Below, one piece after another: positions 4,130 through 41,495 of a DNA stretch of 64,000 nt (position 1 is the first letter of the stretch; every line of letters starts with the position of its first letter). Both the position numbers and the translations under genes were made by a program. The stretch spans positions 1 through 64,000 of the forward strand of contig NZ_PKOJ01000005.1 in the NCBI RefSeq assembly GCF_002860325.1. The letters run 5' to 3'. The stretch is from Neptunicoccus cionae (GTDB lineage: Bacteria > Pseudomonadota > Alphaproteobacteria > Rhodobacterales > Rhodobacteraceae). The notes under the pieces are model-generated. The model was not told the DNA's origin, did not search any database, and saw only the letters and a list, made by a program, of their open reading frames with translations.

Positions 4130-4955
4130 GGGTTCTGTTGCGTTATTCGATTTGCCAAACTGGACTCTGCTTCTGGCTTCCGATTAGGCTGCGGATTTGA
4201 AAAGCGTTTCGATAAACTCGATCTCGCCGCTGACGCCCTCACTCTTGTCGTAAACATGTCTGCGTTTTTTTGTCCTGATGGTCTCCATGCCGCTGAGAGT
4301 TGCCTTTGCTGATCGTAAAGATCGAAAGCTCTTGCGATATCCTAACAGCCTCTTCAAAGCAGCGTGATCGCTTGCAATGCGGTTGTTGCGCCATTTCCGG
4401 TCAATGTGTTTGATACTATCAAAATGGGGATCGTTCCGGTGGTCGAGCTCGCAAATGACGCTCCGATTGGCATGCGCCTTGTCCGTGCAAATGGACACCG
4501 GTCGGTGCAGGCGAACCTTCTCGATTGCCTTTCGCAGAAACGCGCGTGCTGCTTTTGCGTCGCGCCGCGCGGTCAGCCGGAAGTCTACCATTTGCCCGTC
4601 AGCATCAATGGCGCGCCAGAGGTAGCGCCACCGGCCTCCGACGCGGATGTAGGTCTCGTCGACGTGCCATTTGAGGCTTGCTCGCCGAAGGTATCTTTCG
4701 GTTCGTTTGGTCAGTTCCGGAGCAAACTTTTGAACCCATCGGTAGACGGTCGACCGATCCACCGCGACGCCACGTTCTTCGAGAAGATCGACGACATCCT
4801 GGTAGGACAAAGGATATCGGAGATACCAGCGCACGGCACACAGGATGACTTCACGGGGAAAACGGTGGCGCTTGAACGGTGAACTACGCGGCATATCTCG
4901 CTCCAAAATCCCGAAACTGGCGAAATGGAACAATTAATGCATCAGTCGCTCCCCT
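4130..4955 (-). mobile_element. IS6-family insertion sequence, one terminal repeat recognisable
   Basis: The transposase reading frame is preserved. The end nearest its 3' side begins with GGGTTCTGTTGCGTTAT at 4130, an IS6-family-like terminus also found at 12304 (reversed) and 25005. I cannot find the matching inverted copy (GCAACAGAACCC) in the 200 bases beyond the transposase start, so the other end is deleted or diverged. A 17-base block at 4931-4947 recurs with one mismatch, inverted, at 11900-11916, so element DNA extends at least to about 4950. The right limit given is approximate. No target duplication can be assigned. Confidence 0.7.
4184..4894 (-). CDS. IS6-family transposase, probably inactive (catalytic Glu replaced by Ala)
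   Basis: This 236-residue DDE transposase starts at an ATG with GGAG upstream. An in-frame ATG 13 codons earlier is less likely. Family landmarks are an N-terminal zinc-finger-like/HTH part with 'FPREVILCAVRWYLRYPLSY', then 'WHVDETYIRVGGRWRYLWRA' with the first catalytic Asp, and 'SICTDKAHA' with the second. The third catalytic residue normally sits in the block NNxIExDH. Here the codon is GCA and the block reads 'RNNRIASDHAALKRLLGY', so Glu is replaced by Ala by what would be a single-base change from GAA. The rest of the frame is intact. By family knowledge the protein should not catalyse transposition. It could still bind terminal repeats of related copies. Confidence 0.9.
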   Translation of the reverse strand: MPRSSPFKRHRFPREVILCAVRWYLRYPLSYQDVVDLLEERGVAVDRSTVYRWVQKFAPELTKRTERYLRRASLKWHVDETYIRVGGRWRYLWRAIDADGQMVDFRLTARRDAKAARAFLRKAIEKVRLHRPVSICTDKAHANRSVICELDHRNDPHFDSIKHIDRKWRNNRIASDHAALKRLLGYRKSFRSLRSAKATLSGMETIRTKKRRHVYDKSEGVSGEIEFIETLFKSAA

Positions 4956-5128: not shown

Positions 5129-6073
5129 ATGGATACCCATTCATTCAGCCAGCTTGTGTTCCAACTTACCAATTCAGCAATTGAGTTGCCGCCCGACGCA
5201 CACCAGAAGGCCCAGATCAATATCCTGCGCAACGCCATCCCTTTTGATGCCGCTTGGTGGGGCTGGTCTAATTTTGGCAACGGGCGCAACAAACTGGTCA
5301 ATACAGGTCTGTTCGGATTGCCACGCAGCTTTGAAAGTGCAGTAAGGGCGGTCTTGCACCTTGACCCATTTGTGCAGACAGGCCGCAATCTGGCTGTTTT
5401 CGGCAAGTCTCTGGAGGTGCAATCTGCGCCGTTGCCAGATGAGTTTCGCAAATGTCTCGAAGCCTTCCAGATTACCTCGGTTCTGAACGGGCATTGCCGT
5501 TTGCAGGGGAACACCGAATTCAATTTCTTCCTGTCCCTTTACAAACGTGACAGCAACGAGCGCTTTTCAACGGCGGAAACCGCAGACTACCGGTTTATCC
5601 TGCGCCACATAGAGCAATGCCTCTCGCTGGCGCTGCGGGCGGAGTTACGCAGCCTCGCGCCCGAAGGCGGGGAGACTGCATTGATCAGTGCGGGCGGCGC
5701 CATTGTACGTGCCACAAGCCGCTTTCAGGATCGCTTGGCACAAGAGGTTTCGGGCACGGCCGAGCGGCAGGCGATCTTGTCCGATTTATCCTTCGGACGC
5801 GCCAAGTGGACAGGTGCGCAACTGGTTCTGACTGGCGCGCCTTACAAGCAGGGACTCGTCCTTGTCCGACTAGCGGCGACCGATGTTCTTGCCTGCCTGT
5901 CTATTGAGGAACGGCGGGTTGCCGATTACCTGACCCAAGGGCTAACCATGCGCGAAATTGCGGCAACGCGCGGCGTTGCGCATAATACCGTGCGCAACCA
6001 AGTTGCTACAATATATAGGAAAATCGGTGTCAAAAACCGAGCGACCTTTATGACGCGATCCGGTGCGGGCTAA
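5129..6073 (+). CDS. LuxR-family transcriptional regulator
   Basis: This 314-residue protein has a C-terminal LuxR helix-turn-helix (about residues 255-310): 'LSIEERRVADYLTQGLTMRE', 'ATRGVAHNTVRNQVATIYRK'. The first 240 residues have no receiver Asp pocket and resemble the variable ligand- or GAF-like N-terminal regions of stand-alone LuxR proteins in roseobacters. I cannot identify a ligand. The gene lies about 95 bases upstream of the ABC transporter-deacetylase operon in the same direction, so it is a good candidate regulator of that operon. The upstream neighbour is the insertion sequence. The start used is the first ATG of the frame; an internal start is possible. Confidence 0.8.
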   Translation: MDTHSFSQLVFQLTNSAIELPPDAHQKAQINILRNAIPFDAAWWGWSNFGNGRNKLVNTGLFGLPRSFESAVRAVLHLDPFVQTGRNLAVFGKSLEVQSAPLPDEFRKCLEAFQITSVLNGHCRLQGNTEFNFFLSLYKRDSNERFSTAETADYRFILRHIEQCLSLALRAELRSLAPEGGETALISAGGAIVRATSRFQDRLAQEVSGTAERQAILSDLSFGRAKWTGAQLVLTGAPYKQGLVLVRLAATDVLACLSIEERRVADYLTQGLTMREIAATRGVAHNTVRNQVATIYRKIGVKNRATFMTRSGAG

Positions 6074-6168: not shown

Positions 6169-7455
6169 GTGACCTTCAAAACCAAACTCAACCGCCGCGC
6201 CCTTCTGGCCGGTACAGGTACAACATTCGGGCTGCTGGCCGCACCGGGAATCCTACGGGCACAGGCGCGGGATATTCGCATCGGTTACATCACTGCCCTG
6301 ACGGGTTCACGGGCCGAATTTGGCGAAAGTGACCCTTGGATGCTGGAGCAGGTGAAGAAAATCACCGACGAAGGCCTGACCATCGACGGTAACACCTATT
6401 CAGTGGAATTCATCGTCAAGGACAACCAGTCCAACCCCAACCGCTCTGCTGCTGTCGGGAACGAGTTGATCCAGCGGGAGGGGGTCGATCTGCTGCTGGT
6501 ACAGGACCTCGATGCGTCAGTCGCGGTGGGTGAAATGTCCGATATCGCCGGAGTTCCGTCAATCTCGACGATGGGACCGTGGCAGGCCTGGATGTTCGGG
6601 CGCGGGTCAAATCCCGAACAGGGCTTCCCCTATTCCTTCACCTTCTTCTGGGGTGTTGAAATGGCGATGCAAACCTTTGTCAGGCTCTGGGAGCAGATCG
6701 ACACGAACAAGGTTGTCGGGGACTTCTACTTTGACAATCCTGCCGGCCAAGCCTTCGCGCACCCCGAACTCGGCCTTCCGGCGGTGATGGGAAATGCGGG
6801 ATATTCGCGGGTGGACGGCGGTATGTTCCAGTTCGACACGCAGGATTTTTCAGGGCAACTGTCCAAATTCAAGGCCGCCAATGCGCAGATTGTAACCGGC
6901 TTCGGATTCCCACCGAACTGGGCCACATTCTGGGCGCAGGCGGGGCAACAGGGCTTTACCCCCGAAGCAGCCTCCTTCGCCGCATCCTTCCTGTTTCCCT
7001 CTGCCATCGAAAGCCTCGGGGCGCGGGGCAACGGCATGTCCACCGAGGTTTGGTGGACGCCGAACATGCCTTGGTCATCATCCCTAACCGGCCAGACCGC
7101 ATCGCAAATGGCCGCCGCATGGGAGGCACATTCGGGCAAGCAGTGGGTGCAAACTCTGGGCTATTCCCATGCCTTGTTTGAAACAGGGATTGCAGCACTC
7201 AAAAATTCCGGCGATCCCAAAAATCCCGATGCCGTGCGCGATGCCATTGCCTCTATGAACATGAACACGATGGTCGGTCCGGTGAACTGGGCGGGCTCCC
7301 CGATCAAAAACGTCGCTGTGACAGAGGTGGCCGGCGGTCAGTGGCGCAAGACGAACGGCGGCAATCACGCCTATGATCTGGTGATCAATGACAATAGCTT
7401 TGCGCCTTCGGTCGATGTGCAAGACCGGCTGATCCCGCTGTCGCAGCTTGGGTAA
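6169..7455 (+). CDS. ABC transporter substrate-binding protein, branched-chain/amide (urea-like) type
   Basis: This is a periplasmic binding protein of about 428 residues, type I fold. I choose the GTG at 6169 because GGGAGA lies 7 bases upstream. An earlier TTG at 6130 lacks such a site. The N-terminus carries a twin-arginine-like export signal ('NRRALLAGTGTTFGLLAAPG' followed by an AQA cleavage site). The mature start 'RDIRIGYITALTGSRAEFGE' is typical of the LivK/AmiC/UrtA families. It is the first gene of a six-gene operon encoding two ATPases, two permeases and a histone-deacetylase-like enzyme. The ligand is not deducible from motifs. The context suggests an N-acetylated amine or another amide rather than a free amino acid. 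Confidence 0.88.
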   Translation: MTFKTKLNRRALLAGTGTTFGLLAAPGILRAQARDIRIGYITALTGSRAEFGESDPWMLEQVKKITDEGLTIDGNTYSVEFIVKDNQSNPNRSAAVGNELIQREGVDLLLVQDLDASVAVGEMSDIAGVPSISTMGPWQAWMFGRGSNPEQGFPYSFTFFWGVEMAMQTFVRLWEQIDTNKVVGDFYFDNPAGQAFAHPELGLPAVMGNAGYSRVDGGMFQFDTQDFSGQLSKFKAANAQIVTGFGFPPNWATFWAQAGQQGFTPEAASFAASFLFPSAIESLGARGNGMSTEVWWTPNMPWSSSLTGQTASQMAAAWEAHSGKQWVQTLGYSHALFETGIAALKNSGDPKNPDAVRDAIASMNMNTMVGPVNWAGSPIKNVAVTEVAGGQWRKTNGGNHAYDLVINDNSFAPSVDVQDRLIPLSQLG

Positions 7456-7458
7456 GGC

Positions 7459-8181
7459 ATGATGCTAGAGGTTCGCGGGCTGGCAAAAGCGTTTGGCGCA
7501 CTGACGGTGATCGACGATGTGTCGGTCACTGTCAGTGGTGGGCAGGCGCTCGGGGTTATGGGGCCGAACGGGGCGGGGAAAAGCACGTTCTTTGATCTGC
7601 TGACCGGCATCACGCCGGCGGATGCCGGTCAGGTCTGCCTGAACGGGACAGACCTTAGCCGTCTGTCCACCGAGGCGCGGGTGCGCCACGGATTGGTGCG
7701 CGCATTCCAGATTCCCAAACCCTTTGCCACGCTGACAGTGCGCGAGCATCTGATACTTGCCGCGACTGCGGGGGCGGGGCTTGACCGGAAAGCGGCGCTG
7801 AGAGAGGCAGATAATGTGCTTGAGAGAACCGGCCTGACAGGGCTTGCCGCGCAAACAGGGGGCAGTTTGCGCCTATTGGATCGCAAGCGGCTTGAACTGG
7901 CCAAGACACTGGCCACCCGCCCCCGTGTGATCCTGCTGGATGAGATCTCGGGCGGGCTTACAGAAGGTGAAGTGCATGCGCTTGTGGATTTGATCCACTC
8001 TCTCAAATCGCCAGATCTGGTGATCCTTTGGATCGAACACATCGCCCACGCCCTGAGCGCGACCTGTGACCGGATTATGATGCTGCATTTAGGGCGCAAA
8101 GTTATCGAAGATACACCGGACAAGGTTACTTCGGATGCGCGGGTTCGGGAATTGTATCTCGGGGCGGTGCCCCATGCTTGA
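7459..8181 (+). CDS. ABC transporter ATP-binding protein, LivG/UrtD type
   Basis: This 240-residue ATPase has Walker A 'GPNGAGKST', the Q-loop region 'VRAFQIPKPFATLTVREHL', Walker B 'RVILLDEISGGLTEGEV' and an H-loop-like 'WIEHIAHAL' in the LivG pattern. The expected LSGGQ signature is degenerate ('GSLRLLDRKRLELAKTLA'), as is common in LivG-type subunits ('LPYGQQRRLEIARAL'). It starts 4 bases after the binding-protein stop and overlaps the next ATPase by 8 bases. It should pair with the LivF-type subunit on the cytoplasmic face to power uptake. Function in this operon is assigned by family and position. Confidence 0.88.
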   Translation: MMLEVRGLAKAFGALTVIDDVSVTVSGGQALGVMGPNGAGKSTFFDLLTGITPADAGQVCLNGTDLSRLSTEARVRHGLVRAFQIPKPFATLTVREHLILAATAGAGLDRKAALREADNVLERTGLTGLAAQTGGSLRLLDRKRLELAKTLATRPRVILLDEISGGLTEGEVHALVDLIHSLKSPDLVILWIEHIAHALSATCDRIMMLHLGRKVIEDTPDKVTSDARVRELYLGAVPHA

Positions 8182-8875
8182 GATTACCGGACTGAACGCC
8201 TTTTACGGAGATTTTCAGGCGCTGTTTGATATCGACATATCTCTTGGCGCAGGCGAAACCTTGGCGCTGATCGGGGCGAACGGGGCGGGGAAGACCTCTT
8301 TGCTGCAAGCGGTCTGCGGGTTGAACCACGCCACGGGTGGCATCGTTTTAAATGGTGCTTCCCTGACCGGACTTGCCCCGCAACTGCGGGCCGCCGCCGG
8401 TGTCGGCCTGTCACCGGAGGGGCGTCGGATGTTTGCCTCGTTAAGCGTGCGGGAAAATCTGGAGATTGGGGCGAACACGGGTCGCAAGGGGCCGTGGTCT
8501 CTGGCGCGGGTGACCAGCCTGTTCCCGATCCTGGGCGAGTTCGCAGACCGCCCCTCGCGTCTGCTGTCTGGCGGCCAGCAGCAGATGGTCGCGATCGGGC
8601 GCGCCCTGATGTCCAATCCAGCGCTGCTGCTGCTTGACGAGGTGTCCTTGGGCCTTGCGCCGGTGGTTGCGGATGAGGTGATGGGCGCCCTGTCGTCCAT
8701 CCGCGGCGAGAGCGAGATGATGACCATTCTTGTCGAGCAGGATGTGGCCCGTGCAATCAAAGCCTCCAACAGATTTGCCTGCCTTTTGGAAGGCCGCAAC
8801 GTGTTGAACGGCACAAGCAAAGGCGCGGATCTGGACGCGATCAGTCGGGCCTATTTCGGAGAGGATACGGCATGA
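8174..8875 (+). CDS. ABC transporter ATP-binding protein, LivF/UrtE type
   Basis: This 233-residue ATPase has the start 'MLEITGLNAFYGDFQALFDI' typical of LivF, Walker A 'GANGAGKTS', the segment 'GVGLSPEGRRMFASLSVREN', signature 'LLSGGQQQMVAIGRAL', Walker B 'LLLLDEVSLGLAP' and the switch region 'ILVEQDVARA'. I use the ATG at 8174, inside the end of the preceding gene (8-base overlap), rather than the upstream in-frame codon. Its own end overlaps the next permease by ATGA. It is the second ATPase of a heterodimer for this importer. Confidence 0.9.
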   Translation: MLEITGLNAFYGDFQALFDIDISLGAGETLALIGANGAGKTSLLQAVCGLNHATGGIVLNGASLTGLAPQLRAAAGVGLSPEGRRMFASLSVRENLEIGANTGRKGPWSLARVTSLFPILGEFADRPSRLLSGGQQQMVAIGRALMSNPALLLLDEVSLGLAPVVADEVMGALSSIRGESEMMTILVEQDVARAIKASNRFACLLEGRNVLNGTSKGADLDAISRAYFGEDTA

Positions 8876-9738
8876 TTGCCATCGACATTCTTATCAACGG
8901 GCTTCTGCTGGGCGGGCTTTACGCGCTGTTCGGACTGGGACTGTCACTGATCTTTGGCGTGATGAAGATCACAAATATCGCCCACGGGGAATTTGCAATC
9001 GGCGGCGCCTATCTTGTGGTTACAGCAGTTCTGTTTTTGGGTGTTCCATTGTGGGTGGCTGTACCTGTGGCGTTGCTCGTGGCTTTCGGGATCGGCTTTG
9101 CCTTGCAACTGGTGCTGATCAATCGGGTGCTCGGGGATGATCCGATGCCCGCTCTTTTGACGACTTTCGGCCTGTCAATTGTCATCCAGAACCTGCTGGT
9201 TGAGGTCTTCGGCGCTGACAACCGTGCGCTGGATATCGGACTACTGGCTACCAGTGGAATATCCGTTGGCGGTTTCTCCATAGGCGTGTTTCCGGTCATT
9301 ATGTTCACTATCGCAATTGGCCTGTTTGCCTGTCTACATTGGATGCTGAACCGTAGCAAAACAGGGCGTAATGTCCGGGCGACATCGGATGATCCCGAAA
9401 TCGTCGTAATGATGGGCGTGGATCGTGCACGGGTTTTTGCGATGATTATGGGGTTGTCAGCGGCCCTTGCAGCCCTTGCCGGAATCCTGCTGGCCATGCG
9501 CGGCTCTATCACCCCGTTTTCCGGAGCAGAGCGCCTGTTGATCGCCTTTGAAGTCATTGTCATCGGAGGGCTCGGGTCGATCTGGGGCAGTCTGGCAGGC
9601 GGGCTGGTTCTGGGGCTGGTGCATGTGATCGCGCTACGGCTTGATCCGTCCTCCGGCCCGCTTTACGGCCATCTGTTGCTGCTGTTGATCCTGCTGGCCC
9701 GCCCCGAAGGTCTCGCCGGAAAGGTACACAGTCGATGA
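8872..9738 (+). CDS. ABC transporter permease, LivH/UrtB type
   Basis: This 288-residue, very hydrophobic protein has about eight membrane segments and the LivH-family start 'INGLLLGGLYALFGLGLSLI' followed by 'GVMKITNIAHGEFAIGGAY'. The cytoplasmic coupling segment 'RNVRATSDDPEIVVMMGVD' contacts the ATPases in this family. It overlaps the upstream ATPase and the downstream permease by 4 bases each (ATGA). It forms half of the inner-membrane channel. Confidence 0.92.
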   Translation: MIAIDILINGLLLGGLYALFGLGLSLIFGVMKITNIAHGEFAIGGAYLVVTAVLFLGVPLWVAVPVALLVAFGIGFALQLVLINRVLGDDPMPALLTTFGLSIVIQNLLVEVFGADNRALDIGLLATSGISVGGFSIGVFPVIMFTIAIGLFACLHWMLNRSKTGRNVRATSDDPEIVVMMGVDRARVFAMIMGLSAALAALAGILLAMRGSITPFSGAERLLIAFEVIVIGGLGSIWGSLAGGLVLGLVHVIALRLDPSSGPLYGHLLLLLILLARPEGLAGKVHSR

Positions 9739-10670
9739 CACGTATTTTACTGCTTTTAACCTGCGTGGTGCTGACCGTTCTGCCCTTTTTTGCCGGTCGC
9801 AGTACGCTGTTTCTGGGGATGGAGATCCTCGTGATTGTGGCCTTGTCGCAGGCTTGGAACCTTGCAGCGGGATATGGCGGATTGCTGTCCTTGGGGCATC
9901 ACGCCTTTGTCGGGATCGGGGGCTATGCGCTTTATGCGTTATCCCGTGATTTGGGGATACACGTCCTGTTTGCGGTGCCGCTGGCTGGCGTTGTCACCGG
10001 ACTGTTCGCCCTTGCTGTTACGCCGATCCTGTTCCGGCTGCGGGCTGTGTATTTTGCTGTTGGCATGTGGGTTGCCGCCGAGATTGTCCGTATTCTTGTA
10101 ATGCGGGCGGACTGGCTGGGCGGTGCATCAGGCCTGCCGCTTGCGGGGGCCCGCGACCTGCCCCGCGCGTGGATGAGTCCGGCTGCCTACTGGATGGCGC
10201 TGGCGGTTGCCCTTGGCACGACCTGTCTGGTGTGGTGGTTGATGCGCTCTGAATTTGGTCTGCGGGTGCGTGCCTTGCGCGATGACGAGGTTGCAGCGCG
10301 TTCTATTGGGGTGAAACCCCATCGCGTGCGCCTGACCGTTTTTGTGTTGTCTGCCACTGCGACCGGCATGGCCGCGGCGGTCTCCTTCTTTTCGACCCTC
10401 TTTATCACACCGCTAGGCGCATTTGATATGGGCTGGGTCATTACCATCGTTTTTGTCACCGTTATCGGCGGCATGGGGCGTCTAAGCGGGCCGGTTCTGG
10501 GTGCGGCCCTGTACTTCATCCTGCGCGAGAGCCTCGCTGATTTTGGCAACTGGTATCTTATCGCGCTTGGTGTTGCCGCCATCCTGACCATGCTGGTGCT
10601 GCCGGGCGGTCTGGCGAGCCTGATGGATCCATTTTTCAACCGTTCCAAAACTGTAAAGGAGCAGCCATGA
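9735..10670 (+). CDS. ABC transporter permease, LivM/UrtC type
   Basis: This 311-residue membrane protein has LivM-family features: 'ALSQAWNLAAGYGGLLSLGH' near the N-terminus and the coupling region 'FGLRVRALRDDEVAARSIGV' near residue 190. About eight to nine hydrophobic segments are seen. It is the partner of the preceding LivH-type permease. The stop overlaps the start of the deacetylase-like gene by ATGA, so the transporter and that enzyme are translationally linked. Confidence 0.92.
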   Translation: MTRILLLLTCVVLTVLPFFAGRSTLFLGMEILVIVALSQAWNLAAGYGGLLSLGHHAFVGIGGYALYALSRDLGIHVLFAVPLAGVVTGLFALAVTPILFRLRAVYFAVGMWVAAEIVRILVMRADWLGGASGLPLAGARDLPRAWMSPAAYWMALAVALGTTCLVWWLMRSEFGLRVRALRDDEVAARSIGVKPHRVRLTVFVLSATATGMAAAVSFFSTLFITPLGAFDMGWVITIVFVTVIGGMGRLSGPVLGAALYFILRESLADFGNWYLIALGVAAILTMLVLPGGLASLMDPFFNRSKTVKEQP

Positions 10671-11785
10671 CAACCGGTTTCTATTTTGACGAGCATTGCC
10701 TCTGGCATACAACGGGTGAACACGCGCTGATCATGCCCGTTGGCGGTTATGTCCAGCCTCCTTCGGCGGGCGGACATGCAGAAAGCCCCGAAAGCAAGCG
10801 GCGGTTCAAGAACCTGCTGGATGTGTCCGGTCTGACGGCGCGACTGAAGGTTCAGTCAGCAGAACCGGCAACACGGGCGGATCTGGAGCGGGTTCACACA
10901 ACCCAGTATCTCGACACGTTTAAAGCCACCTCTGACGCCGGTGGTGGCAATGCCGGAATCTATTCCCCCTTTGGTGTGGGAAGTTACGAAATCGCAGCTT
11001 TGTCTGCGGGTCTGGCCAAAGCAGCGGTCGCGGATGTGTTCACCGGCAAGATTCAAAACGCATATGCTCTGTCACGCCCGCCCGGGCATCACTGTTTGCC
11101 GGAACAGAGTATGGGGTTCTGCCTGCTGTCCAACATTCCTGTCGCAATTGAGTCGGCGCGGGCCAGTCACGGGCTTGGTCGTGTGGTTGTTCTGGACTGG
11201 GACGTGCACCACGGCAACGGGACACAGGCGGTTTATTATGGCCGCGATGACACGCTGACCATTTCGATCCATCAGGAAAGTTGCTTTCCTCCGGGGCAGG
11301 GGGCGACGGGGGAAACGGGCGAAGGCCGGGGTCAGGGCGCGAACCTGAACATCCCGCTGTTGCCCGGTGTGGGCCATGACTCCTACCTTGATGCGATGTC
11401 CCTGCTGGTGTTGCCGTCAATTAAGGCCTTTGCGCCGGATATGATCGTTGTGGCATCCGGCCTTGATGCCAACGCGTTCGACCCTTTGGCACGAATGCAG
11501 GCCAGTTCTGAGACCTTCCGCGAGATGATGCGGCAGGTTATGGCCCTTGCGGAAGAAATCTGTGGAGGGAGGGTCGCAGTGGTTCACGAAGGCGGTTATG
11601 CCGAAGTGGTCGTCCCGTTTTGCGGACTCGCCATTGTAGAAGAACTGTCCGGCCACCGCACTGATGTGATTGATCCCTTTGCCGAGTTGGTTTCAAGCCA
11701 GCAACCTGCCGAGGATATGATTGCCTTTCAGAAAGAACGGCTCTTACGGCAAAGGGCGGATATGAAGCTGGCCGGACCCGACTAA
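10667..11785 (+). CDS. Histone deacetylase / acetylpolyamine amidohydrolase family hydrolase
   Basis: This 372-residue zinc hydrolase belongs to the arginase-deacetylase fold, class II HDAC-like group. The tandem active-site histidines are in 'RPPGHHCLPEQSMGFCL', zinc ligands Asp and His are in 'DWDVHHGNGTQAVYY', the third ligand Asp is in 'VASGLDANAFDP', and the transition-state Tyr is in 'HEGGYAEV', so all catalytic residues are present. It has no signal peptide and should be cytoplasmic. The gene is coupled by a 4-base overlap to the permease, and the whole operon has no gap longer than 3 bases. Enzymes of this family remove acetyl groups from acetylpolyamines or other N-acyl amines. I infer, but cannot show, that it deacylates what the transporter imports. 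Confidence 0.88.
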   Translation: MTTGFYFDEHCLWHTTGEHALIMPVGGYVQPPSAGGHAESPESKRRFKNLLDVSGLTARLKVQSAEPATRADLERVHTTQYLDTFKATSDAGGGNAGIYSPFGVGSYEIAALSAGLAKAAVADVFTGKIQNAYALSRPPGHHCLPEQSMGFCLLSNIPVAIESARASHGLGRVVVLDWDVHHGNGTQAVYYGRDDTLTISIHQESCFPPGQGATGETGEGRGQGANLNIPLLPGVGHDSYLDAMSLLVLPSIKAFAPDMIVVASGLDANAFDPLARMQASSETFREMMRQVMALAEEICGGRVAVVHEGGYAEVVVPFCGLAIVEELSGHRTDVIDPFAELVSSQQPAEDMIAFQKERLLRQRADMKLAGPD

Positions 11786-11895: not shown

Positions 11896-12304
11896 AGGGG
11901 ACTGATGCGTTAATTGACTTATGTCGGTGGGGAGGTTTGTGGGCACGGTGGATCAAGCAGTTGCGAAGAGTTGTTTGACAGACTGGATCTCGCCAGGAAC
12001 ACTTTGTTGTTTTGGGTGGATGTGGCCGTGCTTGATGGTTCGGATTGTTTCGATCCCGCGAATGTCGCGCCGATCGCTTTGAGCCGTTGGGCTTGTCCTG
12101 CGTTTTTTTAGGGACAGCAACCCGCAGCTTGTTACAGTAGCCATCAAGTTGGATGTCCCCCTTCCAGACAGGATTCCTGACATGATTTACCTTCTGTAAG
12201 ACGCAGGCATAATACGGTCTGTCCAACCCCGTCAGATCGGTTCTTTTGTGCAATCTGTGGTTCAAAGCTAATCTGCGCCAAATCTAGTGAGCGCAACAGA
12301 ACCC
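11896..12304 (-). mobile_element. Degraded IS6-family remnant with one terminal repeat
   Basis: On the minus strand the terminal sequence GGGTTCTGTTGCG starts at 12304. About 240 bases further in, codons for 'GIETIRTIKHGHIH' and 'PGEIQSVKQLFATA' end at 11953. This matches the transposase C-terminus at 4.2 kb ('GMETIRTKKRRHVY', 'SGEIEFIETLFKSAA'). The catalytic core is missing, so this is an internal deletion derivative. The first 52 bases match 25005-25056 at 45 positions. A further IS6-type block lies at 11900-11916 (17 bases, one mismatch to 4931-4947, opposite orientation), suggesting a second nested fragment. No functional gene remains. Confidence 0.75.
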
Positions 12305-32923: not shown

Positions 32924-33982
32924 ATGAAAGGTTTTTCGCCAATGCCGCTAGGTCGCTCCGATCTTATAGAGTTGGCCGTTATCGTAACTCCCAGCTTTAA
33001 CGCTTTCGCTACCTTGGGATTCATCGACCCTTTCCGCGCGGCAAACTACCTTGAGGGACGGCAGTTGTTCCGGTGGCGGTTCTATTCGCAATCAGGTGGG
33101 ATATGTGTGCCAAGCAACGGAATTGGCATGGACTGTGAACCCCTGCCGGCAAGTGCTGGCCAAACGCCGGACATTGCGTTGATTTCGTCAAGCTGGACCC
33201 CTGAACGCCATGGCAGCAAAAAGCTTCAGTTTGCATTGCAAAACTGGGCGCGAGCGGGTGCGACAATTGCCGGATTAGACACGGGCGCATTTATCATGGC
33301 GCAATCGGGATTGCTGAAAAACCGGCGGGCGACCGTACATTACGAGCATATCGACGCTTTCAAGGAGAGCTATCCGGACACAGAGGTTGTTGAGGATCTG
33401 TTCGCTTTTGACGGGCGGTTTGCATCCTGCTGTGGTGGTACGGCGTCTGTCGATTTTGCATTGCACATCCTGCAGGGTATCTGCGGTCCCGCGCTGGCGA
33501 ACGCTGCATCACGGTATATCTTCCACCCTGAATTGCGAGAACATGGCACATGGCAGCAGCCTGCCGGGGCTGAACCGCTGGGGGCGACGGTTCCGTCTGT
33601 CGTCAAGCAGGTCATACGGATCATGGAAGAAAACCTTGAAGATCCGGTTAAAATTCCGGAAATCTGCAGCCGGCTTGGCTGTTCGCACAGGCATGTGGAC
33701 CGGTTGTTTGCGCAGTATATAAAGAAATCACCGTCGCTTTATTATCGGGACATCCGGTTGGATCGCGCACGCGGGCTTGTCACCCAAACCGAACTGTCCA
33801 TGTCCGAAATCTCGGTCGCATCCGGATTTTCCAGTCAGGTGCACTTCAGCCGTTCCTATAAAGACCGCTTCGGATTGCCACCGGCAAAAGATCGCGTGGA
33901 AGGACGTGTTCCCTTCGAATTCCGCGCCTGGCCCATGTACGGCGAGACAAGTAGAAACAGGAATGATGGCCAAAAAAGTTAA
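32924..33982 (+). CDS. GlxA-family transcriptional regulator (DJ-1/PfpI domain plus AraC HTH)
   Basis: This 352-residue protein has an amidotransferase-like sensing domain (about 15-190: 'ELAVIVTPSFNAFATLGFID', 'ARAGATIAGLDTGAFIMAQS') and two AraC helix-turn-helix motifs (about 230-325: 'PVKIPEICSRLGCSHRHVDR', 'MSEISVASGFSSQVHFSRSY'). Relatives control use of carnitine, glycine betaine and other quaternary amines. It lies directly upstream of a Rieske oxygenase of a type that acts on such compounds, which supports that role. Its start is uncertain. The best ribosome site suits an ATG in another frame 10 bases earlier, and an in-frame ATG at 32942 is also possible. Confidence 0.85.
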   Translation: MKGFSPMPLGRSDLIELAVIVTPSFNAFATLGFIDPFRAANYLEGRQLFRWRFYSQSGGICVPSNGIGMDCEPLPASAGQTPDIALISSSWTPERHGSKKLQFALQNWARAGATIAGLDTGAFIMAQSGLLKNRRATVHYEHIDAFKESYPDTEVVEDLFAFDGRFASCCGGTASVDFALHILQGICGPALANAASRYIFHPELREHGTWQQPAGAEPLGATVPSVVKQVIRIMEENLEDPVKIPEICSRLGCSHRHVDRLFAQYIKKSPSLYYRDIRLDRARGLVTQTELSMSEISVASGFSSQVHFSRSYKDRFGLPPAKDRVEGRVPFEFRAWPMYGETSRNRNDGQKS

Positions 33983-34080
33983 TTCGCTGGCGATCTGTGG
34001 CCATTCAGGTTCAAAACTTCGTGCAATATAATTTTGTTCCATCGTTAGCGATCGAAACGCATCCAGCCGAGGGTAAACAC

Positions 34081-35220
34081 ATGAGCGGATTTCCGTCGAA
34101 AGAACAGTTTAGGGCGATCCATCAGGGCTATGATGTGTCCCCGTCACGTTCGCTGTCTTTACATGCCGACGCCTACACCGAAGAACATTGGTACAATGTC
34201 GATCTGAAGGCCGTTATTTCAAAGACGTGGCAATGGGTCTGCCATGTTGAAAAACTGCGGGGCGAAGGGGCCTATACTACTGTTGAAATTGCAGGACATC
34301 CTGTTGCAGTGGTGCGTGGAAAAGATGGCAAGCTGCGGGCGTTTTATAACGTTTGCAAACATCGCGCGCATATTCTTCTATCCGGCGCGGGGACAACAAC
34401 CCGCATCATGTGTCCCTATCATGCTTGGGTATACCGGCTGAGCGGCGAACTGGTGCGGGCGCCAGAAACAGAGAATCTGGAAAATTTCGAACCGGAAGAA
34501 ATTTGCCTCGATCAGGTCCAAGTCGAAGAGTTCTGCGGTTTTGTTTATGTAAACCTTGATCCGCAAGCAGAGCCCTTGTCCAGCCTGACAGGTGATCTAA
34601 AAACCGAAATCTGCCATTGGGCACCGGATATAGAAGACCTGACCTTCGCCAAGCGTCTGACCTATGATATCAAGTCCAACTGGAAGAATGTCGTCGATAA
34701 CTTTCTGGAATGCTACCATTGCCCGACCGCACACAAAGACTTTTGTGATCTGGTGGATATGGACACTTATAAAGTCACCACGCATGGCATCTATTCCAGC
34801 CATATGGCGGATGCGGGGCTTTCTGAAAACAGCGCTTATGATGTGTCGAACGCCACCGTACGCACCCATGCGGTTTGGTGGTTATGGCCCAATACCTGCC
34901 TGATGCGCTATCCGGGACGCTCTTCCATGATTGTGATGAACATCATCCCCGCCGGACCGAACCGGACCTTTGAAACCTATGACTTTTATCTGGAATCCCC
35001 GGAACCGAACGAAGCCGAACTGGACACGGTTCGCTATATTGATGAGGTGTTGCAGGTCGAGGACATCGCCTTGGTTGAAAGTGTTCAGCGGGGCATGGAG
35101 ACACCTGCGTTTGTGCAAGGCCGGATCGTGAATGATCCCGAAGGCTCCGGCAAATCGGAACACGCGGTTCATCACTTTCACGGGTTGATACTGGACGCAT
35201 ATAGCAAGGCAGCCTTGTGA
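34081..35220 (+). CDS. Rieske non-heme iron oxygenase, alpha subunit (CntA/GbcA-like)
   Basis: This 379-residue oxygenase starts at the ATG after GAGGG. The Rieske [2Fe-2S] ligands are in 'NVCKHRAHILLSGAG' (CxH) and 'IMCPYHAWVYRLSG' (CxxH). The mononuclear iron site is in 'NVVDNFLECYHCPTAHKDFC' (two His), with the bridging Asp/Glu region nearby. Overall it resembles oxygenases that demethylate or split quaternary amines. It needs electrons from a reductase, but no ferredoxin-reductase gene is next to it. Two SDR genes follow. The upstream GlxA-type regulator probably controls it. Confidence 0.85.
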   Translation: MSGFPSKEQFRAIHQGYDVSPSRSLSLHADAYTEEHWYNVDLKAVISKTWQWVCHVEKLRGEGAYTTVEIAGHPVAVVRGKDGKLRAFYNVCKHRAHILLSGAGTTTRIMCPYHAWVYRLSGELVRAPETENLENFEPEEICLDQVQVEEFCGFVYVNLDPQAEPLSSLTGDLKTEICHWAPDIEDLTFAKRLTYDIKSNWKNVVDNFLECYHCPTAHKDFCDLVDMDTYKVTTHGIYSSHMADAGLSENSAYDVSNATVRTHAVWWLWPNTCLMRYPGRSSMIVMNIIPAGPNRTFETYDFYLESPEPNEAELDTVRYIDEVLQVEDIALVESVQRGMETPAFVQGRIVNDPEGSGKSEHAVHHFHGLILDAYSKAAL

Positions 35221-35303
35221 CGGACGATTGTCCTTTACGGGTGGCAGTATGTACGAACATGTAATCTCGGCCACAGCCCCGCAAGGCGAACAGGGAGACA
35301 GCG

Positions 35304-36098
35304 ATGACACTTGAAGGAAAGACAGCATTTGTCACGGGTGGACGGGGTGGTATCGGCCGCGCGATTGTTGCACGGTTCCTGCGCGAAGGGGCCACCGTCT
35401 ATGCTGGCGATCTGACCGAGCAGGGGTCACTGGCAGCGCATGATGCAGATGGCAGCAACTTTGTTAAACTGGATGTGACGTCGGAAACCGACGTGATGGC
35501 CGCGATGGAACGGGTGACCGGCGAGCAGGGCAAACTTGATATTCTGGTGAATGCGGCCGGAATAGAAATTGAAAAAACGATCGAAGACACCACGCTGGAC
35601 GAGTGGAACAAAAGCTTTGCGGTGAATTGCACGGGGACATTTCTGACATCGAAATACGCTTTGCCCTTGCTGCGGGTTGCAGCGAAATCGGGTAGGACGG
35701 CCAGCGTTATCAACTTTGGTTCATATGACGGATTTATCGCCGATCCGGGCCTTGCTGCTTATTGCGCTACCAAAGGCGCGGTGCATGCGCTGACCCGTGC
35801 GATGGCGTGTGATCATGGCCCCGAAGGAATCCGAGTAAATGCTGTTTGTCCGGGCTATGTCGATACCCCGATGCTGCAAAGTTTCTTCAAAGGGGAAGGG
35901 TCCGGCGGCAACGGGGGCGATATCGAGACACTGCAAAAAGCAGTACGCGATGTGCATCCGATGCGCAGCTATGGTTCGCCAGATGACATTGCCAATCTGG
36001 TGAACTGGCTGGCCGGAGACGAGGCGCGCTATGCCTCCGGACAGCTTTGGGTTCTGGATGGCGGCCTGTCTGCCCAAGTCCAGCAAATGAAACTCTGA
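35304..36098 (+). CDS. Short-chain dehydrogenase/reductase (SDR)
   Basis: This 264-residue classical SDR has the cofactor motif 'VTGGRGGIGRAIVARFLREG', an Asp after beta-2 ('VYAGDLTEQ') favouring NAD(H), 'LVNAAGIEIEKTI', and the catalytic Ser and Tyr-Lys in 'INFGSYDG' and 'LAAYCATKGAVHALTRAMAC'. The C-terminal 'SGQLWVLDGGLSAQ' is typical. Start AGGGAGACAGCG-ATG is clear. It probably oxidises an alcohol product in the same pathway as the Rieske enzyme. Confidence 0.88.
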   Translation: MTLEGKTAFVTGGRGGIGRAIVARFLREGATVYAGDLTEQGSLAAHDADGSNFVKLDVTSETDVMAAMERVTGEQGKLDILVNAAGIEIEKTIEDTTLDEWNKSFAVNCTGTFLTSKYALPLLRVAAKSGRTASVINFGSYDGFIADPGLAAYCATKGAVHALTRAMACDHGPEGIRVNAVCPGYVDTPMLQSFFKGEGSGGNGGDIETLQKAVRDVHPMRSYGSPDDIANLVNWLAGDEARYASGQLWVLDGGLSAQVQQMKL

Positions 36099-36183
36099 AG
36101 AAGGAACAGACCGTTGACACAGCCCGTCGTCATTACCTGTATGCCCAAGAAAGAAGTCCTTACCATAGCCGGGATATACGCGC

Positions 36184-36918
36184 ATGGATAAAACAGCCAT
36201 TGTTACCGGAGGTGGACGCGGGATCGGTCGGGCCATTGTTGTACGATTGCTGCGCGATGGTTGGCGCGTCGTGACCTGTGGACGGGGCGCCGAACCGGAA
36301 GATCTGCCCGCAGGCGCGATCTGGGTGCAGGGCGATGTCGCCACCAGCGAGGGATGGGCGGCGTTGTTGTCGGCTGCCGGACCGGTACAGGCATTGGTGA
36401 ACAACGCAGGCGTTCAGGTTGAAAAAACCGTCATCGACAGTACTGATGCGGATTACGATCAGGTGATGGACGTAAACTGTCGCGGCACATTTAATATGTG
36501 TCGCGCGGTGCTGCCCCGAATGACGGATCAGGGCGGTGCAATTGTGAATATCGGCTCTGTTTCCGGCGTGGTGTCAGACCCGACCATGGCGCTTTACAAT
36601 GCCTCCAAAGCTTTCGTCCACGCATTGACCCGTTCCATCGCCGTAGATCACGGCCCGAATGTCCGATGCAATGCGATCCGTCCCGGCTGGATTATGACAG
36701 CCATGGCAGAAGACGCTTTTGCCCTCGCCCGCGATCCGGATGCCGCAAGGTCCGATGCGCTTGCCCGTCATCCGGTCGGGCGCTTTGGCAAGCCTGAAGA
36801 CATTGCAAATATGGTCGCGTGGCTGCTTACGGACGAGGCTTCTTATATCTCCGGCGAATGTTTCACGATCGATGGCGGTATGACGGCAGCTTCCCCGCTA
36901 AATCCGGGGTTATTCTGA
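36184..36918 (+). CDS. Short-chain dehydrogenase/reductase (SDR)
   Basis: This 244-residue SDR is a paralogue of the preceding gene: 'AIVTGGGRGIGRAIVVRLLR', 'ALVNNAGVQVEKTVIDS', catalytic 'INIGSVSGV' with 'ALYNASKAFVHALTRSIA', and 'SGECFTIDGGMTAAS'. An 85-base gap precedes it and the ribosome site is weak. Two neighbouring SDRs with matching 'GxxxEKTxxDxT' regions point to a local duplication. The substrate is unknown. Confidence 0.87.
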   Translation: MDKTAIVTGGGRGIGRAIVVRLLRDGWRVVTCGRGAEPEDLPAGAIWVQGDVATSEGWAALLSAAGPVQALVNNAGVQVEKTVIDSTDADYDQVMDVNCRGTFNMCRAVLPRMTDQGGAIVNIGSVSGVVSDPTMALYNASKAFVHALTRSIAVDHGPNVRCNAIRPGWIMTAMAEDAFALARDPDAARSDALARHPVGRFGKPEDIANMVAWLLTDEASYISGECFTIDGGMTAASPLNPGLF

Positions 36919-37084
36919 CGGCTGAATTTTCGCCTTTCCCTTGCCTGCGCCGCGCAGGATTTCTGGCAAGGTGCTGCACAGGCGGAACCGAACCTGCGTG
37001 ACCCCTTCAAGGGCGCAATGAAAAGGCTTGCATCAACAGGGCCGCGCGTGGGATTGCCGTTGAATCAGCCAAGGAGAACGCCCC

Positions 37085-37414
37085 ATGATGATATATGGTC
37101 TGGAAACCTGCCCCGAATGCCAGAAAGCCCGCAAGGCGCTGGAGGCTGCGGGGCACGATATCGCGTTTCGCGATGTGCGTGCGGAGCCGTTAAGCGAGGC
37201 GGAACTGGAAGAGTTGATTGTCGAGTTTGGCGACAATCTGGTAGACCGCAACACCAATGACTACCGCGCGCTCAGCGACTGGTTGAAAAACTCCGAAGCA
37301 GAGGCACAGATTACCGCGAAGCCCAAAGTGATGGCACGTCCGGTGATCCGCAACGGCGATGCGCTGTATCTGGGCTGGGGTGCGGAGGTGCAGAACGCCT
37401 TGCTGGCCGGCTGA
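37085..37414 (+). CDS. ArsC/Spx-family thioredoxin-fold protein
   Basis: This 109-residue protein has a CxxC motif at the N-terminus ('MIYGLETCPECQKARKALEA') and the ArsC-family segment 'KPKVMARPVIRNGDALYLGW'. AAGGAG stands before the start. The family includes glutaredoxin-linked arsenate reductases and related redox proteins of unknown substrate. The arsenate-type middle region 'LVDRNTNDYRAL' is partly kept. No ars genes are nearby, so a general redox role is as likely as arsenate reduction. Confidence 0.75.
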   Translation: MMIYGLETCPECQKARKALEAAGHDIAFRDVRAEPLSEAELEELIVEFGDNLVDRNTNDYRALSDWLKNSEAEAQITAKPKVMARPVIRNGDALYLGWGAEVQNALLAG

Positions 37415-37531
37415 AGCCGGCGTTGAAGGCGGAACTGTTCTCCGGTTATTCATTTGGGATCTGGGGCCACTGCCTTAGACTACAATCGCAACCGGGGTCA
37501 GGTTGGAATTTTCAAGAATTTCAACCACCCT

Positions 37532-37669
37532 CTATACCGCAAGGACCATCGCGGTATAGAGCCCGTACTCTACGGGGAGCCCAGCGTTAGTGGCCAACGC
37601 GCCACCCCGAGGCAAAACAATTGCCGTATTGGGCACGCCAGCAATCAGGTCCTGCTTGCCGCACACCAT
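37532..37669 (-). pseudogene. Scrap of a SulP-family anion permease
   Basis: The minus strand encodes 'MVCGKQDLIAGVPNTAIVLP' and 'RGGALATNAGLPVEYGLYTA', then stops at a TAG. This matches the first conserved region of SulP transporters (DLIAGxxxAxxxxPxGxAxAxxAGLPPxYGLYTA). Only about 45 of the usual 500 or more residues remain. The stop falls in an inverted repeat CTATACCGC / GCGGTATAG (37532-37559). A second inverted repeat, GGTTGGAATT / AATTTCAACC with one mismatch, is at 37501-37526. It is a decayed gene fragment, not an expressed protein. Confidence 0.6.
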
Positions 37670-37707
37670 TTAATCTGGGCCCTATGCGATCCAAGACGCT
37701 GGTTAGA

Positions 37708-39069
37708 TTATGCGGCAGGCGGATCAGGCAGGCGAAGCGTTTTCAGGTCTATCTTGTTAATCGTCTCGATCAGCGCCTGGCTAATCTGGGAAACCTCTTC
37801 ACTGTCAATCACGAGAGGCGGCGTCAGCGTGATGACATTCGCACGCAACCCCAACAGAATTCCATATTCGTGACGCACGTAGCGCGGCAAGTCTTTGAAA
37901 AGCCAAGGCGCATCTTGCGTAAGTGGTGCACGGCTGTCCTTATCCTTCACCAGCTCGATCCCCAGCATCAGCCCGCGTCCACGGATGTTGCCAACGAGTG
38001 GATGATCCTGAAGTGGTGAAAGCTCGACTAGGAATTGCGCGCCGCGGGCTTTACTGTTCTCCAGCAGGTTCTCACGCTCGATGATGTCGATATGGGCCGA
38101 TGCAACCGCTGCCCCGACCGGATGTCCTGCATAGGAATTTCCTGGACCAAAACCGTTGACGGTCTCGGCCACATCCTCACTCATCATAACGGCGGCCATG
38201 GGTACGTAACCGCTGCATATTCCCTTTGCGAGAACGATCATGTCCGGTGCGATACCATAGGCTGCGGACATGAACCATTCGCCGGCGCGCCCAAACCCGG
38301 TCACGACTTCATCTGCGACGAACAAAATGCCGTGCTCTTTCAACACTGCTGTCATGGCGGGCCAATAGTCGTCCGGCAACGGGATCATTCCTCCTGGTCC
38401 GATCATCAATTCGCCGAACATGGCAGCGATGGAGTCCGCCCCGTGCTTTGTAATTACGTTGCGCAATTCATCCACACAGAATGCTGTCATGTCGCGATTG
38501 CCATAAAGCTCGGTATGATAAGGTCTTGGCGGGGTGAGTAATATGACATCATCTGAAGGTGGTGCGATGCCGGGACGACCGCCGGTTAATTCCACACCTC
38601 CCATTGTTCCCCCATGATAAGCCTCGCGGTGCACCAATATCTTGCGGCGCCCGGAATGGCCTTTTTGCGCCTGATAAATCCGCGCGAGTTGCAACGCATG
38701 GTCGTCCGCTTCACCGCCGCCAGTCTCGTACCGCACTTTGGTAATGTTATCCGGAGCACGTGCCACAAGCTTTTCGGCAAACTCGATCGACGGCTGGTTC
38801 GCGTAGTCAAAACCGATTGAAAAACATGCGAGATCCTGCATCTGCCGCGCGGCGATATCTGCAAGTTCCTTACGGCCGTATCCGACCTTGTTAAGCCATG
38901 CTCCACCTTGTGCGTCAAGATACTTGCGCCCGTCTACATCCCAAACACATGCGCCTTTGCCATACGACAGGACGACCGTGTGCTCGCCGCCGCCACCACC
39001 CGGGTGTTGCACCACCACTTCGTCGCGGGCAATCCAAGCCTTAGAGTTGTTTTGCGTTGTGCTTTTCAT
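37708..39069 (-). CDS. Class III aminotransferase (PLP-dependent)
   Basis: This 453-residue enzyme transfers an amino group, usually a terminal one, to pyruvate or 2-oxoglutarate. The start is the ATG after GAGAGGGAACGTGCA; 18 further codons upstream overlap the intergenic space and are not used. The PLP Lys is in 'DMIVLAKGICSGYVPMAAVM', the cofactor Asp in 'ILFVADEVVTGFGRAGEWF'. The usual glycine-rich block (SGSEANE) is altered to 'RYETGGGEADDHALQLARIY'. It is the last gene of the tct operon. With the divergently encoded aldehyde dehydrogenase it could turn an omega-amine into an acid. Confidence 0.88.
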   Translation of the reverse strand: MKSTTQNNSKAWIARDEVVVQHPGGGGGEHTVVLSYGKGACVWDVDGRKYLDAQGGAWLNKVGYGRKELADIAARQMQDLACFSIGFDYANQPSIEFAEKLVARAPDNITKVRYETGGGEADDHALQLARIYQAQKGHSGRRKILVHREAYHGGTMGGVELTGGRPGIAPPSDDVILLTPPRPYHTELYGNRDMTAFCVDELRNVITKHGADSIAAMFGELMIGPGGMIPLPDDYWPAMTAVLKEHGILFVADEVVTGFGRAGEWFMSAAYGIAPDMIVLAKGICSGYVPMAAVMMSEDVAETVNGFGPGNSYAGHPVGAAVASAHIDIIERENLLENSKARGAQFLVELSPLQDHPLVGNIRGRGLMLGIELVKDKDSRAPLTQDAPWLFKDLPRYVRHEYGILLGLRANVITLTPPLVIDSEEVSQISQALIETINKIDLKTLRLPDPPAA

Positions 39070-39086
39070 TGCACGTTCCCTCTCTG

Positions 39087-39455
39087 TTAAAACGTCGAAA
39101 ACGTCTTGCTGATAATTTTCCAAGAACCGTCCCGTTTAAGCAGATGCATGTAGTCGGTAAAATTTCGGCCTCCGAATCCGTATTCCTGAATAGTGACCGC
39201 AGCAGCTTTGCCCCTGATCTCTACTTCGCCGACTTCGTAGCGCGGCGAAATTCCTTTCGACGCAAGTGATGGAGCTGTCCCGACATTCCGGATAAAGACT
39301 TCCGGCGTGCCTTCGATCAAGCGATCTTCCAGATAGCCGTTCATCACCGCATCGCTGGCGAAAGCACCTTTCAGTGCTTCCGCATCGGCGTGAATGTAAC
39401 CTTCCACATATTGGGTGATCACTCGCTGGACCTCGGCAATGTCATCCACTGACAT
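39087..39455 (-). CDS. NTF2-like / SnoaL-type small protein
   Basis: This 122-residue protein has the cystatin-like NTF2 pattern: 'VQRVITQYVEGYIHADAEAL', 'GAFASDAVMNGYLEDRLIEG', and C-terminal 'YMHLLKRDGSWKIISKTF'. Members serve as small enzymes (isomerases, dehydratases) or binding proteins. It overlaps the tctA stop by 14 bases and lies 17 bases before the aminotransferase, so it is part of one operon. The specific role is unknown. Confidence 0.8.
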   Translation of the reverse strand: MSVDDIAEVQRVITQYVEGYIHADAEALKGAFASDAVMNGYLEDRLIEGTPEVFIRNVGTAPSLASKGISPRYEVGEVEIRGKAAAVTIQEYGFGGRNFTDYMHLLKRDGSWKIISKTFSTF

Positions 39456-40944: not shown

Positions 40945-41490
40945 TTAAAGCACTCCCTGTAGCCAGAACGGCAGGTCGATCAGCTTGAATAGCGCTGGTC
41001 GTGGAAACCAGACAGAAAAGCCGACGCGAAAGACCAGCACCATTGCGATTGAACTTAGCAACGCGATGACAACAAGACGTCCACCGCGATATCCAGCGAT
41101 AAAGCCAACGCCGCCTGCAAAGACAAAGATGGACAGCGCAAAGCCCAATATTCCGATCAGGAAGACCGTAATAACCATGCAACCTGACAAGATCGCAACG
41201 CGCCCATAATCTTTGGCGACTTGCGTCCAATCAATCACTTCTCGCTTGGCAACAAAGTACGCAGCGACGCTGGTGATGACGGTGATTACAAGAAATACAG
41301 CCGGGCTCAGCCCGGGTTCGGCCCACCATCCGACTTCAAGGCGCCCGCTTACTTCGCTGCCACGGACAGTTTGGCTGCCAACCAAGGAAAGCAGGATGAT
41401 GGCAGTGCACACCATCCCGCCGAGAAGATGCCGACCACCGTGGCGCTCTTCCTTGAACGGAGACTTTTCCTGATTTGCGTCACCGGACAT
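40945..41490 (-). CDS. tctB: Tripartite tricarboxylate transporter small membrane subunit (TctB)
   Basis: This 181-residue protein has four predicted membrane helices ('LLGGMVCTAIILLSLVGSQT', 'GLSPAVFLVITVITSVAAYF', 'LSGCMVITVFLIGILGFALS', 'VVIALLSSIAMVLVFRVGFS'). Sequence conservation in this family is low, so the call rests on size, helix pattern and position between tctC and tctA. It begins 5 bases after the tctC stop. Confidence 0.82.
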   Translation of the reverse strand: MSGDANQEKSPFKEERHGGRHLLGGMVCTAIILLSLVGSQTVRGSEVSGRLEVGWWAEPGLSPAVFLVITVITSVAAYFVAKREVIDWTQVAKDYGRVAILSGCMVITVFLIGILGFALSIFVFAGGVGFIAGYRGGRLVVIALLSSIAMVLVFRVGFSVWFPRPALFKLIDLPFWLQGVL

Positions 41491-41495
41491 TGCCT

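Follow-up and report, generated by a model that had tools for sequence, protein, structure and literature searches.

The 64,000-nucleotide stretch of Neptunicoccus cionae DNA analysed here (contig NZ_PKOJ01000005.1, positions 1 to 64,000; hereafter the window) carries at positions 6169-11785 an operon in which the genes of a complete branched-chain/amide-type ATP-binding cassette (ABC) importer are followed directly by a gene for a histone deacetylase (HDAC)-fold hydrolase. The operon, whose contig carries a repC gene, is predicted to be plasmid-borne and probably serves the uptake and intracellular deacylation of an N-acyl amine. All of its parts belong to known families, and no published description of an importer coupled to this group of enzymes was found in the literature searched. 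The operon and the regulator gene upstream of it are composed as follows.

5129-6073, forward strand: LuxR-type (GerE) transcriptional regulator gene, 314 aa (PF00196, 34 bits)
6169-7455, forward strand: periplasmic binding protein of the branched-chain/amide ABC type, 428 aa, GTG start (PF13458, Peripla_BP_6, 134 bits)
7459-8181, forward strand: ABC ATPase 1, in the LivG/UrtD position (PF00005; below the UrtD, LivG and LptB cut-offs)
8174-8875, forward strand: ABC ATPase 2, in the LivF/UrtE position (PF00005; UrtE 187 bits, cut-off 285.8; frame checked)
8872-9738, forward strand: permease B, LivH/UrtB-like (PF02653, 124 bits; UrtB 155 bits, cut-off 250.3)
9735-10670, forward strand: permease C, LivM/UrtC-like (PF02653, 112 bits)
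10667-11785, forward strand: class II HDAC-fold amidohydrolase of the HdaH/PA3774 group (cluster 1b), 372 aa (PF00850, 263 bits)

Each of the six open reading frames (ORFs) from the binding protein to the hydrolase was re-read; none contains an internal stop, and the junctions are, in order, +3, -8, -4, -4 and -4 bases, in agreement with the initial annotation, which had described five transporter genes and an HDAC-family gene as one tight chain. The annotation had also called the genes translationally fused, which is incorrect, as each gene encodes a protein of its own, the stop and start codons of neighbours overlapping, and the HDAC gene has a Shine-Dalgarno-like AAGGAG for its own start. 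Its extent of six genes stands, although it overlooked the LuxR-type regulator gene, which ends 95 bases before the binding-protein start, is probably part of the module and is likely to control the operon. In a scan of 27 of the 55 listed window ORFs against profile families, all six operon products exceeded the Pfam cut-offs (Peripla_BP_6, two ABC_tran, two BPD_transp_2 and Hist_deacetyl), and a twin-arginine-like signal, NRRALLAG, was read by eye in the binding protein. Upstream of the operon lies an IS6-type transposase gene (4184-4933, reverse strand; DDE_Tnp_IS240, 153 bits), and a 30-base stretch of its 3' end recurs at 11965-11994, downstream of the HDAC gene (73%), hence the operon may be flanked by an insertion sequence copy and a remnant.

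The hydrolase is assigned to the HdaH/PA3774 group (cluster 1b) and is a predicted deacylase as judged from its fold and residues. The best-matching solved chains were 5li3 and 5g0x, which we take to be PA3774, at 516 bits (chains of the acetylpolyamine amidohydrolase ApaH reached 121 bits), and the eight best chains were HDAH-type, KpHdaH, PrpH and DmhA. As noted in the initial annotation, the HDAC catalytic set is complete: H141/H142, the zinc ligands D179/H181/D267 and Y311 within a GGY motif are all present and align with the residues of the Klebsiella aerogenes and Pseudomonas enzymes. The K. aerogenes enzyme, which with 841 bits to 9glb is almost the crystallised KpHdaH, is 59% identical to that of the window, and the N-terminal ~60 residues (the L1-loop region) of the two align without gaps. 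Both the cluster 1b assignment of HdaH-like enzymes and the roles of the catalytic residues follow the excerpted text of PMC11532494; in a stretch described there as lining the active site, KpHdaH has GKEAP and the window enzyme GIYSP. Fold, catalytic residues and N-terminal region are therefore held in common with the PA3774/HdaH enzymes (KpHdaH, DmhA, PrpH), whereas the position of the gene at the end of an ABC importer operon sets it apart. In a tree of 108 proteins (quick method, supports from the Shimodaira-Hasegawa-like approximate likelihood ratio test, 37 forks left open) the window enzyme grouped with R. pomeroyi (see below) and our loci L065, L066, L067 and L086 (support 94, not starred), a clade that then joined rows from Actinomycetota and Chloroflexota (96, starred); the Variovorax enzyme stood apart among Burkholderiales rows, and two ApaH-like proteins of the N. 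cionae genome made up one side of a starred branch.

Identity of the window enzyme as an acetylpolyamine amidohydrolase was ruled out by its subfamily, by a missing loop and by these two ApaH-like genes elsewhere in the genome. By a count of alignment letters, the stretch from the His motif to the G(S/T)(Y/W)E motif has ~30 more residues in the first ApaH-like protein than in the window enzyme, which lacks the loop insertion of ApaH, named the L2/polyamine-specificity loop in the excerpts of PMC11532494. At the positions of the acidic gatekeepers the first ApaH-like protein has E118/E129 and the window enzyme Thr/Tyr, the second site not being diagnostic alone as Glu also occurs there in the K. 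aerogenes HdaH. In the M. ramosa enzyme these gatekeepers are E106/E117. The two ApaH-like genes (L185, 6258-7331, and L186, 7297-8325, on contigs C12 and C16) scored 470 and 332 bits against ApaH chains, and both lie downstream of importer-like genes of another order (named by eye); the two loci are likely an acetylpolyamine uptake and deacetylation pair within the same genome. They are alike to the window operon in placing an HDAC-fold hydrolase downstream of importer-like genes, but differ from it in subfamily, loop length and importer gene order.

The importer has the binding protein, two ATPases and two permeases, all of the proper Pfam families, that define the branched-chain/amide type. 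This five-part architecture and the Pfam families are common to the Liv and Urt importers; however, the window subunits fell below every listed Liv, Urt and LptB equivalog cut-off of NCBIfam (UrtE 187 bits against 285.8, UrtD 146.5 against 304.1, UrtB 154.9 against 250.3 and LivH 91.2 against 379), and an importer of urea or of plain branched-chain amino acids was not supported on these grounds. A single-sequence search with the binding protein gave no solved relative at 1e-3, while a profile search gave distant ones, the best with an E value of 1.3e-11 to 4q6w; some of these relatives presumably bind aromatic acids. The use of a structural model to infer the ligand was dropped, as the single-sequence AlphaFold prediction of the binding protein had a mean predicted local distance difference test score of 32.9. 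The binding protein belongs to a common family, with homologues in 63 of 248 genomes of the family sample (E≤1e-30); matches other than the window's own at E≤1e-100 in the phylum sample of 398 genomes were 42-47% identical, and none of the nine wider-family loci that were read (36-47% identity) had an HDAC gene.

The operon is conserved in two other named genomes. In Ruegeria pomeroyi DSS-3 the full order of regulator, binding protein, two ATPases, two permeases and HDAC is found on a megaplasmid (SPO_RS20325 to SPO_RS20295), with identities to the window of 63, 60, 55, 62, 49 and 67% from the binding protein through to the HDAC and of 40% for the regulator, a 4-base gap before the HDAC gene and, unlike in the window, a divergent aldehyde dehydrogenase gene adjoining. 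No published function for this operon was found, either in literature listings, where its old locus tags were guessed, or in the excerpts of PMC10130141. Variovorax paradoxus VAI-C has the part from binding protein to HDAC without the regulator (54, 53, 50, 53, 45 and 61% identical). As the same order is kept in R. pomeroyi and Variovorax in spite of protein identities of only 45-67%, the arrangement is beyond chance. The same gene order was also seen in Martelella, with a binding protein 39% and an enzyme 52% identical to those of the window. A plasmid search with the regulator (E≤1e-15) returned two records, from Agrobacterium tumefaciens and R. pomeroyi DSS-3, no match at E≤1e-20 was found in the 384 other genomes of the class sample, and the full-length identity to regulators adjoining HDAC genes in R. 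pomeroyi, Agrobacterium and Rhizobium paknamense was 40-41%. The conserved linkage that the initial annotation made its test was found, but the specific operon is rare: of the 63 family genomes with the binding protein only that of the window has a binding-protein match (E≤1e-30) and an HDAC match (E≤1e-60) within 20 kb (tables compared by eye), the next-nearest pair, in genome G077, being about 21 kb apart.

The group of enzymes as a whole is joined to several unrelated kinds of transporter. Named loci were the best 80 of at least 591 confirmed candidates, with a bias to close relatives; their neighbour genes were called with our own ORF finder, which places some starts wrongly and overlooked the binding protein of L158, and were clustered by single linkage, and a large, mostly Rhodobacterales clade taken from the branching of the tree (39 loci) served as contrast. 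A co-directional neighbour within 100 bases with at least 6 predicted membrane spans was found at 17 of the 41 loci outside the large clade, compared with 18 of 254 background genes (Fisher p 8e-8, a value overstated because the loci are related), and at none of the 39 inside it (background 5/218); a limit of 5 spans gave 17/41 and 2/39. Genes of the branched-chain ABC type lie within ~6 kb of the HDAC gene on the same strand at L158, L160 and L162 (ABC genes of other or unclear type at L085, L087 and L153 were left out of the count), a gene of one major facilitator superfamily (MFS) cluster stands directly upstream of the HDAC gene in 12 loci from Pseudomonas, Burkholderia, Rhizobium, Marinobacterium and Raoultella (Pfam on one representative), and others directly upstream are a tripartite ATP-independent periplasmic (TRAP) permease in two loci (Pfam on one), a BenE-type transporter in one and an Na_H_antiporter-family protein in one. 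Among 11 family genomes read around the HDAC gene, an ABC operon was present in one (L065), with a binding protein that gave no BLAST match to the window's at 1e-5.

Of 25 plasmid records bearing an HDAC gene, 15 were picked by us and 14 of those are annotated. In 11 of the 14 a transporter is part of the HDAC gene run (four branched-chain-type ABC, two other ABC, two MFS, two sodium/solute symporters and one amino-acid permease), the records without one coming from Novosphingobium, Pantoea and Leisingera methylohalidivorans. For the branched-chain-type ABC label the tree requires at best 5 changes, and among the labelled rows at least 2 are forced by starred branches, so that the ABC/HDAC pairing seems to have been gained or lost more than once. 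The suggestion of the initial annotation that the enzyme probably acts on the transported solute is supported by the linkage in R. pomeroyi and Variovorax and by the related enzymes at other importers.

The direction of transport, the joint function of importer and enzyme, the regulation and the class of substrate are what we infer from these observations. The LuxR-type regulator would control the operon; the binding protein and ABC importer would, by family and linkage, take up a small N-acylated amine; the cytoplasmic zinc hydrolase, of which the fold and catalytic residues are observed, would remove the acyl group from it; and the free amine would then pass to amine- and aldehyde-oxidising genes elsewhere in the genome. 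The enzyme most likely deacylates the imported amine and not proteins or polyamines, as its relatives adjoin uptake and amine-breakdown genes.

In several lineages such neighbours belong to 4-hydroxyphenylacetate or monoamine breakdown. On Agrobacterium pAtCFBP7129a the HDAC gene is in a block with hpaR, hpaE, hpaD, hpaH, hpaI, a gene for a regulator with 41% identity to the window's and an MFS gene, together with an AraC-type gene and genes for an aldehyde dehydrogenase, a GMC oxidoreductase and a 4-hydroxyphenylacetate hydroxylase; a comparable block with hpaB/C/D-like genes exists in Rhizobium paknamense, and the two were counted as one lineage because their regulators are 88% identical. 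In Pantoea piersonii the HDAC gene accompanies hpaD, hpaE, hpaR, a LuxR-type gene and an aldehyde dehydrogenase gene (74% to Klebsiella FeaB), and in Klebsiella aerogenes hdaH is found with moaF, moaE, atsA, atsB, a gene annotated as monoamine regulon regulator (a 149-aa ORF), an MFS gene and feaB. Among the 41 loci outside the large clade, 14 have an aldehyde dehydrogenase-cluster gene no more than eight genes from the HDAC gene, as against 1 of the 39 inside it, and the aldehyde dehydrogenase beside the R. pomeroyi operon shares 61% identity with the one at the Agrobacterium hpa locus. According to the excerpts of PMC11532494, the small amides dimethoate and propanil are substrates of DmhA and PrpH, two enzymes of cluster 1b, and the degradation of paracetamol by DmhA is cited in the part of PMC9420511 consulted. 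From the hpa and monoamine contexts, the aldehyde dehydrogenases and this small-amide hydrolysis we tentatively propose, at somewhat under an even chance, that the imported class is an N-acyl aromatic monoamine, e.g. N-acetyltyramine or N-acetyldopamine. Also in its favour, an HpaD is encoded in the host genome on another contig (G000, C12, 120050-120928, in L184; 411 bits, cut-off 321); this putative homoprotocatechuate 2,3-dioxygenase gene adjoins an aldehyde dehydrogenase match. The class III aminotransferase, aldehyde dehydrogenase and Rieske oxygenase genes that the window carries 22-31 kb downstream of the operon point the same way.

A number of observations weigh against the proposed pathway. 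Within the window no amine catabolism gene adjoins the operon, and the nearest candidates are more than 20 kb away; it is in relatives that the enzyme is linked to hpa and fea genes. No HpaB exceeded the cut-off in the host genome, and the best of its 15 matches to the Agrobacterium aldehyde dehydrogenase reached only 40%. The window regulator aligns with the Klebsiella monoamine regulator only in the C-terminal helix-turn-helix part (26% over 104 aa), by which full-length orthology of the two was ruled out. In vitro, KpHdaH and PA3774 cleave acetyl-lysine substrates (excerpts of PMC11532494 and PMC4784309). The Variovorax context (amidase, aminotransferase III) and that of Shinella give no pointer to aromatics. 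The 17 transporter-linked loci are not independent, as 12 share one MFS type and most are close relatives, and three of the six members of the window enzyme's own clade (L066, L067, L086) lack a neighbour in the same direction within 120 bases.

Importers of this class often transport amino acids, and the solute could accordingly be an N-acylated amino acid, above all free N-epsilon-acetyl-lysine that is deacetylated to lysine. The acetyl-lysine activity of KpHdaH and PA3774 and the aminotransferase III genes near some relatives (and 26 kb downstream in the window) agree with this, but the hpa and monoamine contexts do not fit and the scores for the LivG, LivF, LivH and LivM models are far below the cut-offs, and we consider it unlikely. 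Somewhat similarly placed, and rather unlikely in our view, is another amide or ester (an N-acyl amino alcohol, for instance, or an aryl-alcohol ester), to be oxidised by GMC and aldehyde dehydrogenases; genes for both enzymes occur within or beside the HDAC runs of Agrobacterium, Martelella and Shinella and an amidase gene lies upstream of the Variovorax operon, yet the annotation surrounding the operons of R. pomeroyi and Variovorax lists no GMC gene.

That the enzyme is a protein lysine deacetylase, with an incidental or regulatory linkage to the importer, is improbable. The cluster 1b enzymes KpHdaH and VsHdaH do deacetylate lysine peptides (excerpts of PMC11532494), but chance hardly accounts for a coupling to several unrelated kinds of transporter, the operon is kept in R. 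pomeroyi and Variovorax, and small molecules are hydrolysed by two members of the same cluster. Acetylpolyamines, the example given in the initial annotation, are taken up and deacetylated with the aid of ApaH-group HDAC-fold enzymes, and ApaH-like genes do stand beside importer genes in this very genome; however, the window enzyme is not ApaH-like, the genome's two ApaH-like genes would already supply that function, and PA3774 did not deacetylate acetylpolyamines in the work excerpted from PMC4784309. We regard an acetylpolyamine operon, and polyamines as the substrate, as very improbable.

Other neighbours of related enzymes include aminotransferase III, GMC and aldehyde dehydrogenase, glutamine synthetase and amidase genes, and with such variety the group as a whole probably acts in more than one pathway. 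A broader and more tentative reading, which we put forward as a possibility with the balance against it, is that the HdaH/PA3774 branch is essentially catabolic and has repeatedly been joined to whichever importer was available (ABC, MFS, TRAP or symporter) for the salvage of N-acylated aromatic or other monoamines, the operon of the window and R. pomeroyi being a dedicated ABC importer for N-acyl monoamines. This branch has so far been discussed mainly as lysine deacetylases, and the physiological role of PA3774 "remains to be elucidated" in the words of the excerpted PMC4784309; literature listings yielded nothing on the PA3771-PA3774 group or on HDAC together with monoamine genes. The conserved linkage of these enzymes with importers and, in some lineages, with 4-hydroxyphenylacetate or monoamine genes offers a concrete small-molecule hypothesis for the role of PA3774/HdaH-type enzymes, one that becomes testable in R. 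pomeroyi DSS-3, a model marine bacterium for which an arrayed mutant library is described in the excerpts of PMC10130141. If it is true, many bacterial 'histone deacetylase' annotations would denote scavenging enzymes for N-acylated amines.

Further downstream in the window, the scan gave the following genes.

32924-33982: AraC-type regulator
33997-35220: Rieske oxygenase
37708-39123: class III aminotransferase, 26 kb downstream of the operon
39442-40944: TctA-type transporter
within 42860-44563: aldehyde dehydrogenase

The last four lie 22-31 kb downstream of the operon, and the region 33997-44563, which also has a short-chain dehydrogenase gene, may form a separate catabolic region of the contig, for amines or aromatics. 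Other settings of the enzyme were observed as well. In another catabolic setting, in an alphaproteobacterial metagenome-assembled genome (L163, 4154-9602), the HDAC gene overlaps a Rieske oxygenase gene, with HpaB-like, flavin reductase-like and DUF1028 genes nearby. At L069 and L103 a class III aminotransferase-cluster gene directly precedes the HDAC gene (1-base gap or overlap), a metallo-beta-lactamase-fold cluster follows it and a P450 gene lies further on (Pfam on L069 only). Among 92 loci compared, two clusters are repeatedly present downstream of the HDAC gene in the large Rhodobacterales-rich clade (e.g. L070), one of the nitroreductase family (24 genes) and one of EI24/CysZ-family membrane proteins (31 genes), with Pfam on one representative of each; together they make up a conserved neighbourhood.

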